Source of the DNA: a virus
Reading direction: 5' to 3' (one strand)
Virus record (IMG/VR): IMGVR_UViG_3300034060_000450
Span: 1-30,628 of that record
Length of the DNA stretch: 30,628 bases
The notes beneath the pieces were generated by a model. The model was not told the origin of the DNA. It ran no database searches and saw nothing but the letters and a program-made list of their open reading frames with translations. How positions within the stretch are numbered: the stretch's first letter is position 1; every line of letters starts with the position of its first letter. Shown piece after piece: positions 1,204 through 9,294 of the stretch. A program made the translations under genes and the position numbers.

Positions 1204-1271
1204 GCTGGCATTCGGTGGTTTTTTTAAGTGATTGCCGGGTTAGGGGGCTAGGCTTGTACACTAGTTTCAAA

Positions 1272-1568
1272 TAAATCTGTCCAATCTGTCCCACTGGTAA
1301 ACTGAAGAAACCAAGAAACACCAGAAAACAAAAGGAAACAAAGACAATATACCTCCCCAGAGAAAAACACGGACAGATCTATTAAAGAGTATAGTTTTTT
1401 TTAAGTTTATACAGTGTTTTTATTGGTTTTTACTCTATCCGAATCTGTCCCAAACATTTGGGACAGATTCGGGACAGATTCGGTATGTGTGGTGTACGTC
1501 GGTATAGTTGTTGACAGTAACTGTCTAGCACTTACTCCGGACAGATTTATTTGTCCGGAGATTTGTCC
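1272..1568. other. Iteron array with AT-rich tract, likely replication origin
   Basis: The stretch 1204-1593 holds no gene. It carries GGACAGATT in both orientations at 1274-1282, 1283-1291, 1442-1450, 1461-1469, 1472-1480 and 1539-1547, a copy with one change at 1371-1379, and looser copies at 1549-1556 and 1561-1568. Two of them form a perfect inverted repeat with 14-base arms (1441-1454 and 1457-1470) and another a 9-base-arm repeat (1535-1543 and 1552-1560). A strongly AT-rich tract (about 1380-1440) lies in the middle. Its position right after the primase-helicase gene fits a phage origin. An operator region is the alternative. Confidence 0.65.
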
Positions 1569-1593
1569 AAGCCAAAAAAATAGATTTTGTACA

Positions 1594-3756
1594 CTATGTT
1601 TTTGGCTGATCAACACGCTTGTAGATGATCGTCTTTTTCGTCACTCCAGACTCAGCCACAACCTCAATTGACCCATCTGCCTGCATGCTTTCAGCAGCAG
1701 CAGTAAACTCACTTCCGCTAATCGACCGGAACTCTCGCATGAGATCCCGTCGAGATACTGAACCAAGCTTCGAGACTGCCATCTGCAGGACGTGCCTCGC
1801 TCGGTTAGCCTGTGAGTCCACGACATTCTCCCGGATCAGCGCACAGGCCACCCTAGCAAGCCAGTTCGCGATATGAATCCCCCAGTTGACATCCCGAAGT
1901 TCAATCCTAATAAACTGCCAGTCTGTCGTGCCTGGGTCCGTGTCTAACCTCGATGCCCTATGAACCATAGCCAGTTTCATCGCCCGACCAGCGACACGCC
2001 CCCAGATTGCAGCCCGTGATTCGCTTTCATGCTCCATTCGCTCGTCAATTGCGTCTGCGTGGTGATCCCATCGTTTAATTGCTTCATCTGTCATCTCAAT
2101 AATTTCAGCCGCCGGAATTCCGAGATTGCCGCTCACTGGCTCCCACTGCATCCACTGACGTACAGTTTCTGCCAGCCGATCCGGAACCGGAATCGCCCTG
2201 GCCGTTTTTCTTTTTGGCCGATTCTGAACTGGCCAAAATGCCAGCCGCCCGAAAAGCCCGTCTTGAACCTGCCGGCTGTCGATTGTCTCGAACATTTGCC
2301 CTGTCGTCAGTCCCAGAAGAACCAGGTGCGGCTGATCAACCTGATTGCGGATCCCATCGGCGTGAGCAGCTCCGCCGTAAAGACCAGCAGACTTTGAGTA
2401 CAGTCTCAGGAGATGAGTTCCTATCTGTTTCGCATGCCCGTTGTTGGACTTTTTATCTAAAATTGACTCCAGCACTTTTCCAAATTCGTCGCAGCACCAA
2501 ATCCCACAAGGGCATGAATGGATTGCTTTCATAAGTCCGTTTCCGGATTGTACATCCGGTGGAATCATGCAGACGGTTCCAGCAGCCTGTAATATCTTTG
2601 TGATTGCAGTTTCACAGGCTTCTTTCCCACTCGCTGTCGGGGCCATGATCACGTTGTAATCATTGGTCCGCATGTCGGTGTGGCTTGCAATTCGACGCCC
2701 AGAAATCGTTTCACATAAGCTGACAGCAACAGCCAATCCCATTACGTAGCTCGTTCGGTGCGATGTCTGGCAGTAATAATCAAAGACTTCACGGAGAAGA
2801 CCGGATTCAGGTACGGCACCTGCGCAAAATTGCTCATCATCAAAATCATCGCCGCGTTCTTCACCTAGAATTCCGGACAGATCAACCTCAGAGTGAAACG
2901 CCTCCATTGGTCGATTATACTTTATTTCACGCGGCGTTCCGTTTCTTTTGCATGAATCAACGACCCTCTGTAACTCATCATCTGAAAGTGGGGTAGGATT
3001 CTTAAGGTTCCAATCACGGGCGATTTGAAGTAATCGATCTTCAGAAAGCAGTTCTCCATCATGGTTAAAACCTCGGAGATGTCCAGCAAGTGAAAATGCT
3101 GAGTTGTTTCGGCTTCCCTCTCCAGCTTGGGGAACTGCTTTAATATAAGAGTCTATCCTGTTCTCAAACGCAACCATTGCGTTTTTTGGATTGGCAGGGA
3201 TCTTTGGTACAGCAGGAGATTCTTTTTCGCGTGAAAGATATTTTTCGCAAATCCAATCAACCGCGTCTTGCCCGTCGCCAATCTCATCGTTGCCAGCGTA
3301 AACATCACCTGTGATCGTCCAGAACCTAGCGTGGTCGTAAACTTCAATTTGACCTTCGCTGTGCTTATGGGTGCATCTAGAACCCAGAGGCTTGCGTGCC
3401 CGTGTTAGGATTTTGATTCCCGTTTGACTTGGGGACACCTCCGCAAAACCGATGCCGTCGAGTCTGCACAGAATCGGAATAACCCATGCCTTAATTCCAT
3501 TATCATCAATGCAGTCATCGAGGTCTATTCCAGTCCACGGGCCAGTAATCTCGAACGCCAATCCACTGTGGAACTGGCTTGCGTCTGAGGCAGTTTCAAA
3601 GTCTGTCCATGTGGATGAGTCGTTTGACTTTGCCGCCGATCCGTTTACCTGAATCGGAATTTTCACATCGTCGCCGTCTTTGTTTTTTATAAACTTCCAG
3701 CAATGCCACTGGTGAACATCACGAAGCTCTTGAGGAATCCGGTCGTAGTTATTCAT
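1594..3756 (-). CDS. Primase-helicase (PrimPol-type primase plus ATPase domain)
   Basis: This 720-residue protein should start and drive phage DNA replication. The N-terminal 200 residues match AEP/PrimPol-type primases: a QWHCWKF start, GIDLDDC around residues 76-82 (acidic metal-binding pair), SPSQTGIKI around 108-116 and EVYDHARFWTITG around 138-150. A PriCT-like linker (NSAFSLAGHLRGF, then SDDELQRVVDSC) follows at about 218-270. The C-terminal half is an ATPase with Walker A APTASGKE near 372-379 and Walker B-like CCDEFG near 421-426, resembling DUF3987-type phage helicases. The start at 3756 overlaps the stop of the previous gene as ATGA, so the upstream in-frame start is unlikely. The iteron region lies directly downstream. 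Confidence 0.88.
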   Translation of the reverse strand: MNNYDRIPQELRDVHQWHCWKFIKNKDGDDVKIPIQVNGSAAKSNDSSTWTDFETASDASQFHSGLAFEITGPWTGIDLDDCIDDNGIKAWVIPILCRLDGIGFAEVSPSQTGIKILTRARKPLGSRCTHKHSEGQIEVYDHARFWTITGDVYAGNDEIGDGQDAVDWICEKYLSREKESPAVPKIPANPKNAMVAFENRIDSYIKAVPQAGEGSRNNSAFSLAGHLRGFNHDGELLSEDRLLQIARDWNLKNPTPLSDDELQRVVDSCKRNGTPREIKYNRPMEAFHSEVDLSGILGEERGDDFDDEQFCAGAVPESGLLREVFDYYCQTSHRTSYVMGLAVAVSLCETISGRRIASHTDMRTNDYNVIMAPTASGKEACETAITKILQAAGTVCMIPPDVQSGNGLMKAIHSCPCGIWCCDEFGKVLESILDKKSNNGHAKQIGTHLLRLYSKSAGLYGGAAHADGIRNQVDQPHLVLLGLTTGQMFETIDSRQVQDGLFGRLAFWPVQNRPKRKTARAIPVPDRLAETVRQWMQWEPVSGNLGIPAAEIIEMTDEAIKRWDHHADAIDERMEHESESRAAIWGRVAGRAMKLAMVHRASRLDTDPGTTDWQFIRIELRDVNWGIHIANWLARVACALIRENVVDSQANRARHVLQMAVSKLGSVSRRDLMREFRSISGSEFTAAAESMQADGSIEVVAESGVTKKTIIYKRVDQPKT

Positions 3757-4001
3757 TGAATCCACCTTAGGAAATCATTGATTGCGTGTTGGCTCCCAGT
3801 CTGAAGGCTGCAAATTAACACAGTGTCAATGTTTTTCATTGAGGGAAAATCAATGCCGTGTTCGACTACTTCAACCTTTAATTTAAGTTCGTAGTTTCCA
3901 AAAAACTCAATCACATGGCCGACTGCTGGGGTAGATTCCAGATCTAGCTCAATCTCAACGACTGGCTTACTCGGAAATTCAATTTGAATTACATATCTCA
4001 C
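3753..4001 (-). CDS. Small hypothetical protein, 82 aa
   Basis: The start is GTG at 4001, 9 bases after GGAG; no ATG is available in frame. The product reads MRYVIQIEFPSKPVVEIELD then a HVIEFFGNYELKLKVEVVEHG stretch (alternating hydrophobic, mostly beta) and ends NDFLRWIQ. It looks like a small beta-rich protein whose function I cannot assign. It ends in an ATGA overlap with the primase-helicase gene, so the two are probably co-translated. It starts just after a strong terminator at 4018-4059, so either readthrough or a promoter close to 4002-4017 must serve it. Confidence 0.65.
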   Translation of the reverse strand: MRYVIQIEFPSKPVVEIELDLESTPAVGHVIEFFGNYELKLKVEVVEHGIDFPSMKNIDTVLICSLQTGSQHAINDFLRWIQ

Positions 4002-4119: not shown

Positions 4120-5817
4120 TCAGAACGGTAGGTCGTCATCAATCCCTGAAAACACTTTTGTCTCTTCCTGCTGTGCCAGCTCAGTCGGCTTCTTTGATTC
4201 AAAGAAGCACTCTGTGACCCTATGCCAGCGACCATCCTTCTTGGTTGTGATTCTTACCGGCCTGCGACAGACACCCATGTTAATCAAAGCTACAGCATCC
4301 GTGGCGTTATCCGGTGGATCACATATTGATCGAGCATCCCACCAGGCTAGAAACTTCAAACGTGCGAACCCCTGATGCCCTGGGCAAGTCCATTCAGGTA
4401 TGAGGATCGTTGTCAGGTTTCCAGCAACTCCAGTTTTTCCGCACACATAATCAACCCGCACTGTCTGCGGAGCGTGCTCGTCATCCCTTTTCGTGTGGAC
4501 CCGAACGACAACATCCTTGACTTCCCATTCCTCCGGAGGAATGGCTCCGGTAAGTTGAGACGTTTCATCCGCAGTGATGTCGTGCTTCAACTCCCGATCA
4601 CGAGGGAAGATAAAATTACACTCAGGGCAGACAACTGTTGCCGGAGACACATCCAGTTCACAGGACGGACACCGCTTACCTCGTCCGTTTTCGGCAGCAA
4701 CACCCGCTCGCCCTTTGCCTTCCGACCGCCCAAAGTTCTCGTCATCGATTGAGCCATGCCTAGCGATGTTACCACCGAAGTCTAAGAGTAAGCAGTTGGT
4801 TTTGCTGTCATGCAACCTCAGCCCCCTGCCAACCATTTGACAGAAAAGCCCAGGGGACATCGTCGCTCGGAGAATAGCAATGGCATCGACGCACCGAGCA
4901 TTGAAGCCAGTGGTCAAGACATCGACATTGACAAGAAAGCGAAGCTCACCCGCTACAAACCTTCGCAGCGTTTCGGCTCGTTCGATTGGCAGCGTCTCGC
5001 CAGTGACGACAGCAGACTCAGGAAGCAACTCAGCGATCTGCTCCGCATGGTGAACACCAGACGCAAAGACCAACACACTGTGCCTGCCCTGTGTCTTCTC
5101 GATGATCTCTGCGCAAGCGGCCTGAACCTTTTCATCAACATCGAATGCCGCCTGCATTTCTGATTCAACAAACTCACCACCGCGCAGCCCGACTTTGTCA
5201 GTGTTGACTTCGGCCTCTGCAACCTTGTTTGTGATCGGACATAAGAATCCTTCAGCAATCAACTGCGCAGTCTTTGCTTCAAAAACAATTCGTTGAAAGA
5301 TCCTGTCAGGTCCGCAGATTGGGCCTGTACCAGTCCTGAATGGCGTAGCGCTCAATCCGACAATCCTAAGCCCTTCCTGCTGCTTCATAGCGTTCAGGAA
5401 CGTACTGTACATGGACTCTTCAAGGTCACTACACAGGTGGCATTCATCCACGAGAATCAGATGTCTTCGCCCTAAATCCTCAGCTTTACGAAAGACACTC
5501 TGAATGCCAGCGACAACAACAGTGTTGTGTATCTCTCTGGATTTCAACCCCGCTGAGTAAATGCCAACATCGACGCCGGGAATCAGTCCCCTGATCTCGT
5601 CAGCGTTCTGCTGAAGCAGTTCTTTACGATGCGCGAGGACAACCACTCGCCCTCCGAACTCCAACGCCTGCCGAATCAACAGTGCAATCAGGAGGCTTTT
5701 GCCTGCACCTGTTGGAAGAACGGTAACGCAGTTCCCGCTCTTCTCATTGAGGTACTTCCACACAGCATCGTTTGCTTCGGACTGATACCAGCGAGGGCTA
5801 AGTACAGGCGTTTTCAT
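4120..5817 (-). CDS. SF2 DEAD/DEAH-box helicase, RadD-like, with SSB-like C-terminal tip
   Basis: 565-residue superfamily 2 ATPase. Visible motifs are motif I PTGAGKS (35-41), motif II DECH (124-127), motif III SAT (156-158) and motif VI QMVGRGLR (327-334), followed by a four-cysteine zinc finger CPSC...CPEC (383-400) as in RadD-like helicases. It should unwind or remodel branched DNA during phage replication or recombination. The protein ends FSGIDDDLPF, close to the DFDDDIPF tip by which bacterial SSB recruits partner enzymes, whereas the SSB-like DUF669 protein of this phage lacks such a tip. The gene overlaps the HTH gene by 20 bases and ends at the 4018-4059 terminator. Confidence 0.88.
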   Translation of the reverse strand: MKTPVLSPRWYQSEANDAVWKYLNEKSGNCVTVLPTGAGKSLLIALLIRQALEFGGRVVVLAHRKELLQQNADEIRGLIPGVDVGIYSAGLKSREIHNTVVVAGIQSVFRKAEDLGRRHLILVDECHLCSDLEESMYSTFLNAMKQQEGLRIVGLSATPFRTGTGPICGPDRIFQRIVFEAKTAQLIAEGFLCPITNKVAEAEVNTDKVGLRGGEFVESEMQAAFDVDEKVQAACAEIIEKTQGRHSVLVFASGVHHAEQIAELLPESAVVTGETLPIERAETLRRFVAGELRFLVNVDVLTTGFNARCVDAIAILRATMSPGLFCQMVGRGLRLHDSKTNCLLLDFGGNIARHGSIDDENFGRSEGKGRAGVAAENGRGKRCPSCELDVSPATVVCPECNFIFPRDRELKHDITADETSQLTGAIPPEEWEVKDVVVRVHTKRDDEHAPQTVRVDYVCGKTGVAGNLTTILIPEWTCPGHQGFARLKFLAWWDARSICDPPDNATDAVALINMGVCRRPVRITTKKDGRWHRVTECFFESKKPTELAQQEETKVFSGIDDDLPF

Positions 5818-6268
5818 TTTTCACCCATCCCTTTGACACTAAGTTAAAATGATCAATATCTCTCTGCTTCCATTTTGTTCTACCTCGCTCCATTTCTGAC
5901 ATCTTGGCCAGTGACCAACCTAAACTTTTAACTGCGTCTTCCTGCGACAAACCTGCAAGCGTACGGATCTCCTTCGCAGCCTTGCCTGTCGCCTCGTCAT
6001 CCGTAATTACCACGGCCTTGAGCTTTGCTCGCAGTCTTAAATGATCGACAAGCTTATTTTCTCGCGGCCTCGGACCTTGCGGATTCTTGACCGCACTCCT
6101 TGGTTTTGCTTCTCGCTTTGGGCGAGGCTCTTCACCAATGACTTGCTCTGGGGTCCACCCGGACTTCATGCGGAAATAAAGGGCTTCGCGGGAGATGCCT
6201 TTTATTTTTGCCCAGTTGGTCAGCAGGTATTCTCTGGTGCCAACTTTCAGAGATACTTGAGTTCTCAT
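5798..6268 (-). CDS. Double helix-turn-helix DNA-binding protein
   Basis: 156 residues with two candidate DNA-binding units. Residues 1-46 (LLTNWAKIKGISREALYFRM) look like a short HTH of the kind found in NUMOD-like modules. Residues about 97-145 (AAKEIRTLAGLSQEDAVKSL, then SLAKMSEMERGRTKW) read as a Cro/C1-type (XRE) HTH. The linker between them is rich in K, R and P. A strong AGGAGG 6 bases before the ATG at 6268 sets the start. It could be a phage regulator, but its place in the middle of the replication operon is not typical for a lysogeny repressor. Confidence 0.7.
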   Translation of the reverse strand: MRTQVSLKVGTREYLLTNWAKIKGISREALYFRMKSGWTPEQVIGEEPRPKREAKPRSAVKNPQGPRPRENKLVDHLRLRAKLKAVVITDDEATGKAAKEIRTLAGLSQEDAVKSLGWSLAKMSEMERGRTKWKQRDIDHFNLVSKGWVKNENACT

Positions 6269-8669: not shown

Positions 8670-8914
8670 CCTTGCCCCCTTAGCACGCCGTGACCAAATG
8701 GCAGCATTCGTGTTGAACACTCCCTGATCATTGGATCCCGATGACAACCTTTGTTCTGTGGAATCTCAGGCCGCTCTAAACGGATCATCTCAGCCATACC
8801 CATAGTTGTCTCAGTACCCCAAATCTGTTCCAGTGTTGGATCCGGAGTCACTGGCTTGTGTTCGACTGGGGGGTGCATAGCACCCGACCGATTCCTTGGT
8901 TTCTTCGCTGACAT
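8666..8914 (-). CDS. Hypothetical protein, 82 aa
   Basis: The ATG at 8914 overlaps the csrA stop as TGATG, and the gene ends in an ATGA overlap with the resolvase gene, so it is held in a tightly coupled set. The product starts MSAKKPRNRSGAMHPPVEHK, is rich in P, R and M, contains TLEQIWGTETTMGMAEMIRL, and has no clear fold. I cannot assign a family. Confidence 0.55.
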   Translation of the reverse strand: MSAKKPRNRSGAMHPPVEHKPVTPDPTLEQIWGTETTMGMAEMIRLERPEIPQNKGCHRDPMIRECSTRMLPFGHGVLRGQG

Positions 8915-9195
8915 CAGACATCCCTCCTGACTGGAGTTTTCTGCCACAACCTGACAGCATCTGGTGCAGTGAGGGAAACCGGAGCAGGAGGCTTAATCGG
9001 ATATGCCTCGGGATTGAAGCCAGTCTCCATGATTGAGTCATGGATCTCCTTCCGATCGATCCGCACTTCTTGAGATGCTGTGACCCCAATTCCAATACTG
9101 GTCGGACCATGAATGTAAACTAGTTTCACGACGATCGTCTCTTCACCGACCGTGATAATAATTTCTTCGCCAACTCTTCTTTTCAAAACTAACAT
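8914..9195 (-). CDS. csrA: CsrA-family RNA-binding translational regulator
   Basis: The first 60 residues match CsrA: MLVLKRRVGEEIIITVGEE, strands carrying TIVVKLVYIHG, then GIGVTASQEVRIDRKEI. The RNA-contacting residues at L4, R6 and the late R of the V-R-I-D-R motif are present. CsrA dimers bind GGA motifs in mRNA leaders and block or activate translation. This copy has 93 residues against the usual 60-70; the extra tail is proline-rich (IKPPAPVSLT) and ends KTPVRRDV. The start at 9195 is set by family alignment and by AAGGA 6 bases upstream. That site overlaps AAGGATGT, which matches the CsrA consensus core, so self-repression is likely. A large folded leader lies at 9218-9294. Confidence 0.88.
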   Translation of the reverse strand: MLVLKRRVGEEIIITVGEETIVVKLVYIHGPTSIGIGVTASQEVRIDRKEIHDSIMETGFNPEAYPIKPPAPVSLTAPDAVRLWQKTPVRRDV

Positions 9196-9198
9196 GCG

Positions 9199-9206
9199 AC
9201 ATCCTT
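9199..9206 (-). promoter_or_regulatory. Probable CsrA binding site over csrA ribosome binding site
   Basis: The mRNA sequence AAGGAUGU matches the last eight positions of the published CsrA consensus RUACARGGAUGU and contains the ribosome binding site of csrA itself. Self-repression is inferred from this overlap. Confidence 0.6.
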
Positions 9207-9217
9207 TCCGTTTGGGT

Positions 9218-9294
9218 AAAAACCAGAGACTGCCCGCCTTCATTGGCTTGCGGGGGCCAGCCGTTGAAAATCATTTTCAATGGGGCAGTCTCTG
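9218..9294 (-). terminator. Branched hairpin with T-run in csrA leader (terminator or attenuator)
   Basis: Perfect 12-base arms at 9283-9294 and 9224-9235 close a region that holds a second perfect hairpin (TTGAAAA-TGA-TTTTCAA, 9264-9280) and a short GGCT/AGCC stem (9245-9262), so the RNA can form a three-way junction. Five Ts (9222-9218) follow the closing stem, as in an intrinsic terminator. It lies between the zinc-finger gene and csrA, so it may set how much transcription reaches csrA. Confidence 0.65.

Follow-up and report, generated by a model that had tools for sequence, protein, structure and literature searches.

A repeat array behind a phage primase-helicase gene

The window, by which we mean the whole 30,628-base stretch of viral DNA analysed here, contains a gap at positions 1204-1593 that begins directly 3' (downstream) of the stop codon of a primase-helicase gene on the minus strand. 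A 9-base word, GGACAGATT, is repeated in this gap on both strands, together with a long palindrome and an AT-rich tract. Two mechanically called open reading frames overlie the gap and appear to be accidental. The features are as follows, with word sites numbered outward from the primase gene.

1204-1593: non-coding region resembling an origin, containing the nine word sites, the palindrome and the AT-rich tract; origin function is inferred
1255-1260: TGTACA at the distal array end, offset 333 from the primase stop
1274-1282, minus strand: word site 9, exact, in the distal head-to-tail pair
1283-1291, minus strand: word site 8, exact, in the distal head-to-tail pair
1371-1379, plus strand: word site 7, GGACAGATC, one mismatch (GGACAGAT(C) at 1371-1378), beside the AT-rich tract
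About 1373-1432: AT-rich tract, best 60-mer 80% AT, candidate unwinding element
1439-1472: perfect inverted repeat, 16-base arms and 2-base centre (16+2+16)
1442-1450, minus strand: word site 6, exact, in the left arm of the palindrome
1461-1469, plus strand: word site 5, exact, in the right arm of the palindrome
1472-1480, plus strand: word site 4, exact
1539-1547, plus strand: word site 3, exact, in an arm of the second inverted repeat (1535-1560)
1549-1556, minus strand: word site 2, GGACAAAT, one mismatch, in an arm of the second inverted repeat
1561-1568, minus strand: word site 1, GGACAAAT, one mismatch
1588-1593: TGTACA at the array end on the primase side, offset 0 from the primase stop
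1594-3765, minus strand: primase-helicase of 723 amino acids, proposed initiator, with AEP prim-pol, PriCT-1, DUF3987 ATPase and C-terminal winged helix
1597-1815, minus strand: C-terminal winged helix (residues about 651-723), proposed word reader on the basis of a structural model and covariation with the word
1747-1749, minus strand: codon of Arg673, in the first turn of helix 2, the alignment column that parts C4 from A4 words (those with C or A at base 4)

All exact copies of the word in the 30,628-base record, six in number and three per strand, lie in the gap; in 2000 dinucleotide shuffles of 1204-1593, 9-mers never exceeded three copies. Three near copies (1371-1378, 1549-1556 and 1561-1568) bring the array to nine sites. 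The original prediction, made from sequence alone, had described at least six exact repeats in both orientations, several near-exact ones and a location right behind the primase-helicase gene, and each of these claims held, the gap being 3' of the gene. It had also listed a stray copy at 2875-2883; this is GGACAGATC, with one mismatch, and not an exact copy, and it carries no weight because about eight one-mismatch matches are expected by chance in the window.

The predicted palindrome, with 14-base arms at 1441-1470, proved to be longer, its 16-base arms making it the longest perfect inverted repeat in the window (loop up to 10); the arms of perfect inverted repeats in shuffles of 1204-1593 never exceeded 9. 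A second palindrome, predicted with 9-base arms at 1535-1560, was also confirmed, the perfect arms sitting inside 12-base arms (1535-1546 and 1549-1560) that are 92% complementary, and the predicted AT-rich tract was found as listed above. An Rfam search returned no match, and a promoter and terminator scan of 1100-1700 gave none above threshold. TGTACA also lies at or near both array ends in most of the window's closest relatives.

The N-terminus of the primase matches solved AEP primases (about 5e-41), its Pfam matches are PriCT_1 followed by DUF3987, and its PHROG matches are DNA primases. No Toprim match was found in the protein, the AEP match standing in its place, and Pfam gave neither DUF927 nor a Primase_Cterm/D5-type helicase domain but DUF3987 instead. 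AlphaFold2 modeled the last 84 residues as a winged helix with H-S-H-H-S-S topology (mean pLDDT 84), and the full-length model has the same topology in this region. Foldseek comparison of the winged-helix model with the PDB returned generic wHTH regulators with modest E-values, and a sequence profile of the winged helix had no significant match among PDB chains. The protein thus appears to have the domain set of PrimQH (PrimPol-PV1) enzymes, namely AEP, PriCT-1, DUF3987 and WH, although the WH is predicted by the model and no AEP-domain tree underlies the assignment. The surrounding genes form a replication and recombination set, encoding an SF2 helicase and DUF669 SSB-like, Sak4-like and RusA-like proteins.

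Arrays and words in related phages

We collected several hundred related loci through IMG/VR scans with the primase and with primase alignments, and took a census of arrays in the first 450 bases behind the gene at 94 non-redundant loci where the 3' end of the primase gene is complete. An array lies directly 3' of the primase at about 60 of the 94, the word count there beating all 8 shuffles per locus. About one third of the relatives have no clear array within 450 bases; some of these absences may reflect a gene inserted between primase and array, as perhaps in L337. There, about 360 bases, apparently including a small gene, separate the primase stop from the array and are absent in the related L336; beyond this insertion the internal layout of the L337 array is kept.

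The five closest relatives (L007-L011) have a gap of the same build but with another word, GGAAAGAAG in L007, L009 and L011 and GGACATCT in L008 and L010. More than 20 words were found across lineages, including GGACAGAAG, GGACAAAAG, GGACAGTGG, TGACAGATT, TGACAATCG and TGACACTCG, as well as CGGCAATCG, TGCCAAACG, GGACAACCT, GGTGAAGTT, CGACAACTT and TGACGGAAG. Phages with unlike words nevertheless have closely similar templates, that is, similar site positions and orientations, and AT-rich tracts comparable to that of the window are present in most relatives examined. L014 (40.9 kb) has seven exact copies of its own word, all of them inside the block behind the primase. The original prediction had proposed a comparison of repeats between relatives and was to be refuted by relatives that keep the primase without repeats. 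On comparison, GGACAGATT itself is usually absent from relatives, but an array with another word is present; the array is kept, with words that vary from lineage to lineage. Primase matches in named phage and plasmid records were only distant (<60%), and arrays there were left out; host genomes likewise contained only distant relatives.

The record of L014, a close relative, also encodes a tyrosine integrase (G001:20231-20653; PF00589, E 5.6e-27), and some members of this phage group, if not all, are therefore probably temperate. The same small GRPK gene, probably encoding a ribbon-helix-helix protein, lies beyond the array in L009, L336 and L337, phages with primases of only about 30% identity, which points to recombination near the putative origin.

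Covariation of the word with the winged helix and residue 673

If a protein reads the word, it has to change as the word does, and the C-terminal winged helix of the primase does so. In the natural pair L185 and L187, the primases differ at 10 positions in residues 1-650 and at 23 in residues 651-728 (the last 78 or so). At the DNA level, the two are 66-76% identical over the winged helix, mostly 42-58% over the array and 86-100% beyond +300. Their other replication genes are more than 90% identical; the pair also has a variable SF2-like and N6-N4 methylase gene pair upstream of the helicase (L185:352-2693 and L187:297-2691), about 30% identical.

Among pairs with less than 25% divergence in the primase body, the ratio of winged-helix to body divergence has a median of 1.47 where words differ vs 0.87 where the word is shared. 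These pairs are not independent, and for some of them the label "different" rests on a locus with no clear array. Ancestry dominated the global mutual-information and Mantel tests, which did not single out the winged helix: its partial r of 0.24 was reached by 4 of 2000 permutations, with helicase segments giving values of up to 0.39. Helix 3, the recognition helix, was rejected as the sole determinant of specificity, being nearly invariant in a close group of phages while their words differ. Because of this near constancy, other specificity residues may lie elsewhere, perhaps in the wing. Covariation of word and winged helix across the family is shown, in the absence of binding data.

One residue stands out within this domain. 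In the close group, columns 673 and 676 are the only ones of the whole primase that strictly split phages with GGAA words from those with GGAC words, and the primase body groups these phages otherwise. Family-wide, among 452 columns (the C-terminal two thirds), column 673 alone parts A4 from C4 words: it holds S, S, T, T and T with A4 words, R (nineteen times) or N (once) with C4 words, and H with the single G4 word. The serine codons are unlike, TCT in L007 and AGC in L013, which points to independent change and not to one exchanged tract. In L336 and L337, whose primases are 98% identical overall, N673 is replaced by T as TGAC is replaced by xGAA at matching positions.

The rule linking residue 673 to base 4 was recorded before two further scans for relatives. 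Among the new loci, those with readable arrays fitted the rule: five with S or T at 673 (L350, L351, L353, L371 and L391) have A4 words and two with N673 (L343 and L352) have C4 words. Several of these loci are close kin of earlier ones and not fully independent, L351 and L353 have short or uneven arrays, and word registers were set by eye. Only four phylogenetically independent base-4 contrasts fall on well supported branches, three of them consistent and one without change, too few pairs for significance in an independent-pairs sign test. Several lineages do not fit or could not be registered, namely L048 (CGAGAATG), L307 (CGAGAAAT) and L044 with T673, and L053, with S673 and a weak array (CGACGAAC); the alignment of helix 2 is shifted in L039, L179, L032 and L035. 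The data show that residue 673 covaries with word base 4, on few independent contrasts and with a few distant lineages that either do not fit or could not be registered.

A putative origin and its proposed initiator

Together, these observations suggest that the gap is likely to be a replication origin read by the winged helix of the adjoining primase. Two features expected of an iteron-type origin are present, namely a cluster of copies of one short word beside the proposed initiator gene and an AT-rich element next to the repeats. The array, its conserved place, the similar templates, the diversity of words, the winged-helix covariation and the link between residue 673 and base 4 are shown by the comparisons above; binding, ring assembly, melting and origin activity are inferred. 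In the proposed mechanism, the primase-helicase encoded just upstream of the gap would be its own initiator, with the winged helix recognizing a 9-base word, in this phage GGACAGATT, at some nine sites. These follow a conserved template that comprises an outer cluster, tandem sites that end in the palindrome, a lone site by the AT-rich tract and, at the distal end, a head-to-tail pair. On the palindrome, bound protomers would form a ring or double ring and melt the AT-rich tract; the DUF3987 ATPase would unwind the DNA and the AEP domain would prime synthesis. Word and reader, that is, the array plus roughly the last 75 residues, would evolve as one cassette, so that most sites take on a new word in concert and the template is retained.

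Comparative evidence thus supports the original prediction of a repeat-bound replication origin, origin activity itself being inferred. Of the two binders it had offered, the primase-helicase or a small HTH protein, the former is favored because arrays adjoin the primase family-wide and the word covaries with its winged helix. The GC skew, which it had put forward as a check, is uninformative on the origin and tracks the one-directional genes.

A first alternative is that the array is an operator, through which the primase or another protein controls transcription beyond it, with replication starting elsewhere. By eye, a TTGACA box and a -10-like hexamer lie past the array at about 1198-1165 on the minus strand, and several relatives have TTGAC boxes past theirs, for which the word sites could be operators. 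However, the promoter scan described above found no candidate above threshold, an operator would not need some nine sites spread across 300 bases plus a palindrome and an AT-rich tract, and the covarying reader belongs to a primase-helicase and not to a dedicated repressor. We consider this explanation unlikely, and autoregulation could in any case coexist with origin function.

It is also improbable, in our view, that another protein (the double-HTH protein, the small GRPK protein or the SF2 helicase) reads the word while the winged helix hitch-hikes by recombination with the adjoining array. In favor of this possibility, the winged-helix code adjoins the array, so that recombination alone would exchange both, and other genes differ within the natural pairs: the small gene before the primase in L336 and L337, and the methylase and SF2-like gene pair in L185 and L187. 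Yet neither pair differs in the genes that vary within the other, the window and L009 share 90% identity in the SF2 helicase despite having different words, and the unlike serine codons of L007 and L013 argue for independent change at 673. Among the array-bearing phages L007-L011, none encodes a relative of the double-HTH protein (5798-6268), and L009, L336 and L337 have nearly identical GRPK proteins although word base 4 differs; both were rejected as readers, the first as not conserved and the second as alike where words differ. Finally, iteron-like centromeres and stoperators exist, and the L014 integrase makes temperate members of the group probable, but a partition site, incompatibility locus or set of immunity (stoperator) sites in place of an origin is very unlikely, since the word is coupled to the primase and is confined to one block in both the window and L014, unlike stoperators, and no ParA/ParB-like match was found among the window proteins scanned (not every gene).

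The reading of the gap as an origin recognized by the primase can be extended to a bolder one, toward which the evidence leans slightly unfavorably. Here, the words would be a diversifying self-recognition code, in which phages sharing one template keep switching to mutually non-recognized words through a co-changed or exchanged reader of about 75 residues plus array, under selection to keep co-infecting relatives, satellites or decoys from exploiting the origin or attacking it. Residue 673 and base 4 would then be the part of such a code that is already legible.

By analogy, the proposed origin and initiator share their logic with several known systems. The SaPI Rep/PriRep proteins (and SCCmec Cch2) are initiator helicases, AEP-fused in SaPI5, whose C-terminal domain reads short iterons of an origin immediately downstream of the gene (PMC7581432), as is proposed here, and the AEP domain of the window's protein matches solved primases including the 797-amino-acid DNA primase entry 7ola. 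The SaPI and SCC proteins have DUF927 or Primase_Cterm/D5 helicases, whereas ours has a DUF3987 ATPase, and SaPI Rep differs further from the family described here, with its more than 20 words on closely similar templates and its one-residue link to one base. Phage P4 alpha combines primase, helicase and an origin-repeat-binding winged helix in one protein (PMC4234260), but its primase is of the Toprim class and not AEP, and its helicase class and array layout also differ. Because it differs from them in helicase or primase class, we have not filed the protein as a SaPI Rep or a P4 alpha. In pRN1, ORF904 combines an AEP primase with a helicase and ends in a winged helix, and the origin follows its gene immediately on the 3' side (PMC4234260); that origin is a stem-loop of about 100 bases without iterons and the helicase is SF3, in contrast to the iteron array and DUF3987 of this system. 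Closest in domain order, which is the same, are the PrimQH AEPs of the PrimPol-PV1 supergroup, some with DUF3987, for which a role of the WH in origin recognition has been suggested (PMC5862659). Our data support that suggestion by analogy and supply candidates for the cognate origin and word, neither of which is named in the sections of that paper bearing on it. Two systems with unrelated proteins and replication modes offer parallels to the covariation: in the geminivirus Rep iteron-related domain, a single initiator residue varies with one base in the iteron core, GGNGTCC (PMC2974675), and in PLE RepA and its ori, the DNA-binding domain and the origin covary and are exchanged as a module (PMC8263062).

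These comparisons attach a candidate origin and a word to DUF3987-type prim-pol initiators, for which origin recognition had previously only been suggested. With more than 20 origin words and their putative readers, including the near-isogenic pairs L185/L187 and L336/L337, both the specificity of the winged helix and the selective driver of word change become testable, and the position of the array behind the primase could help to locate origins in uncultured phages of this group. Elsewhere in the window, positions 8914-9243 (minus strand) contain a phage-encoded CsrA-family regulator (PF02599, E 2.8e-10).
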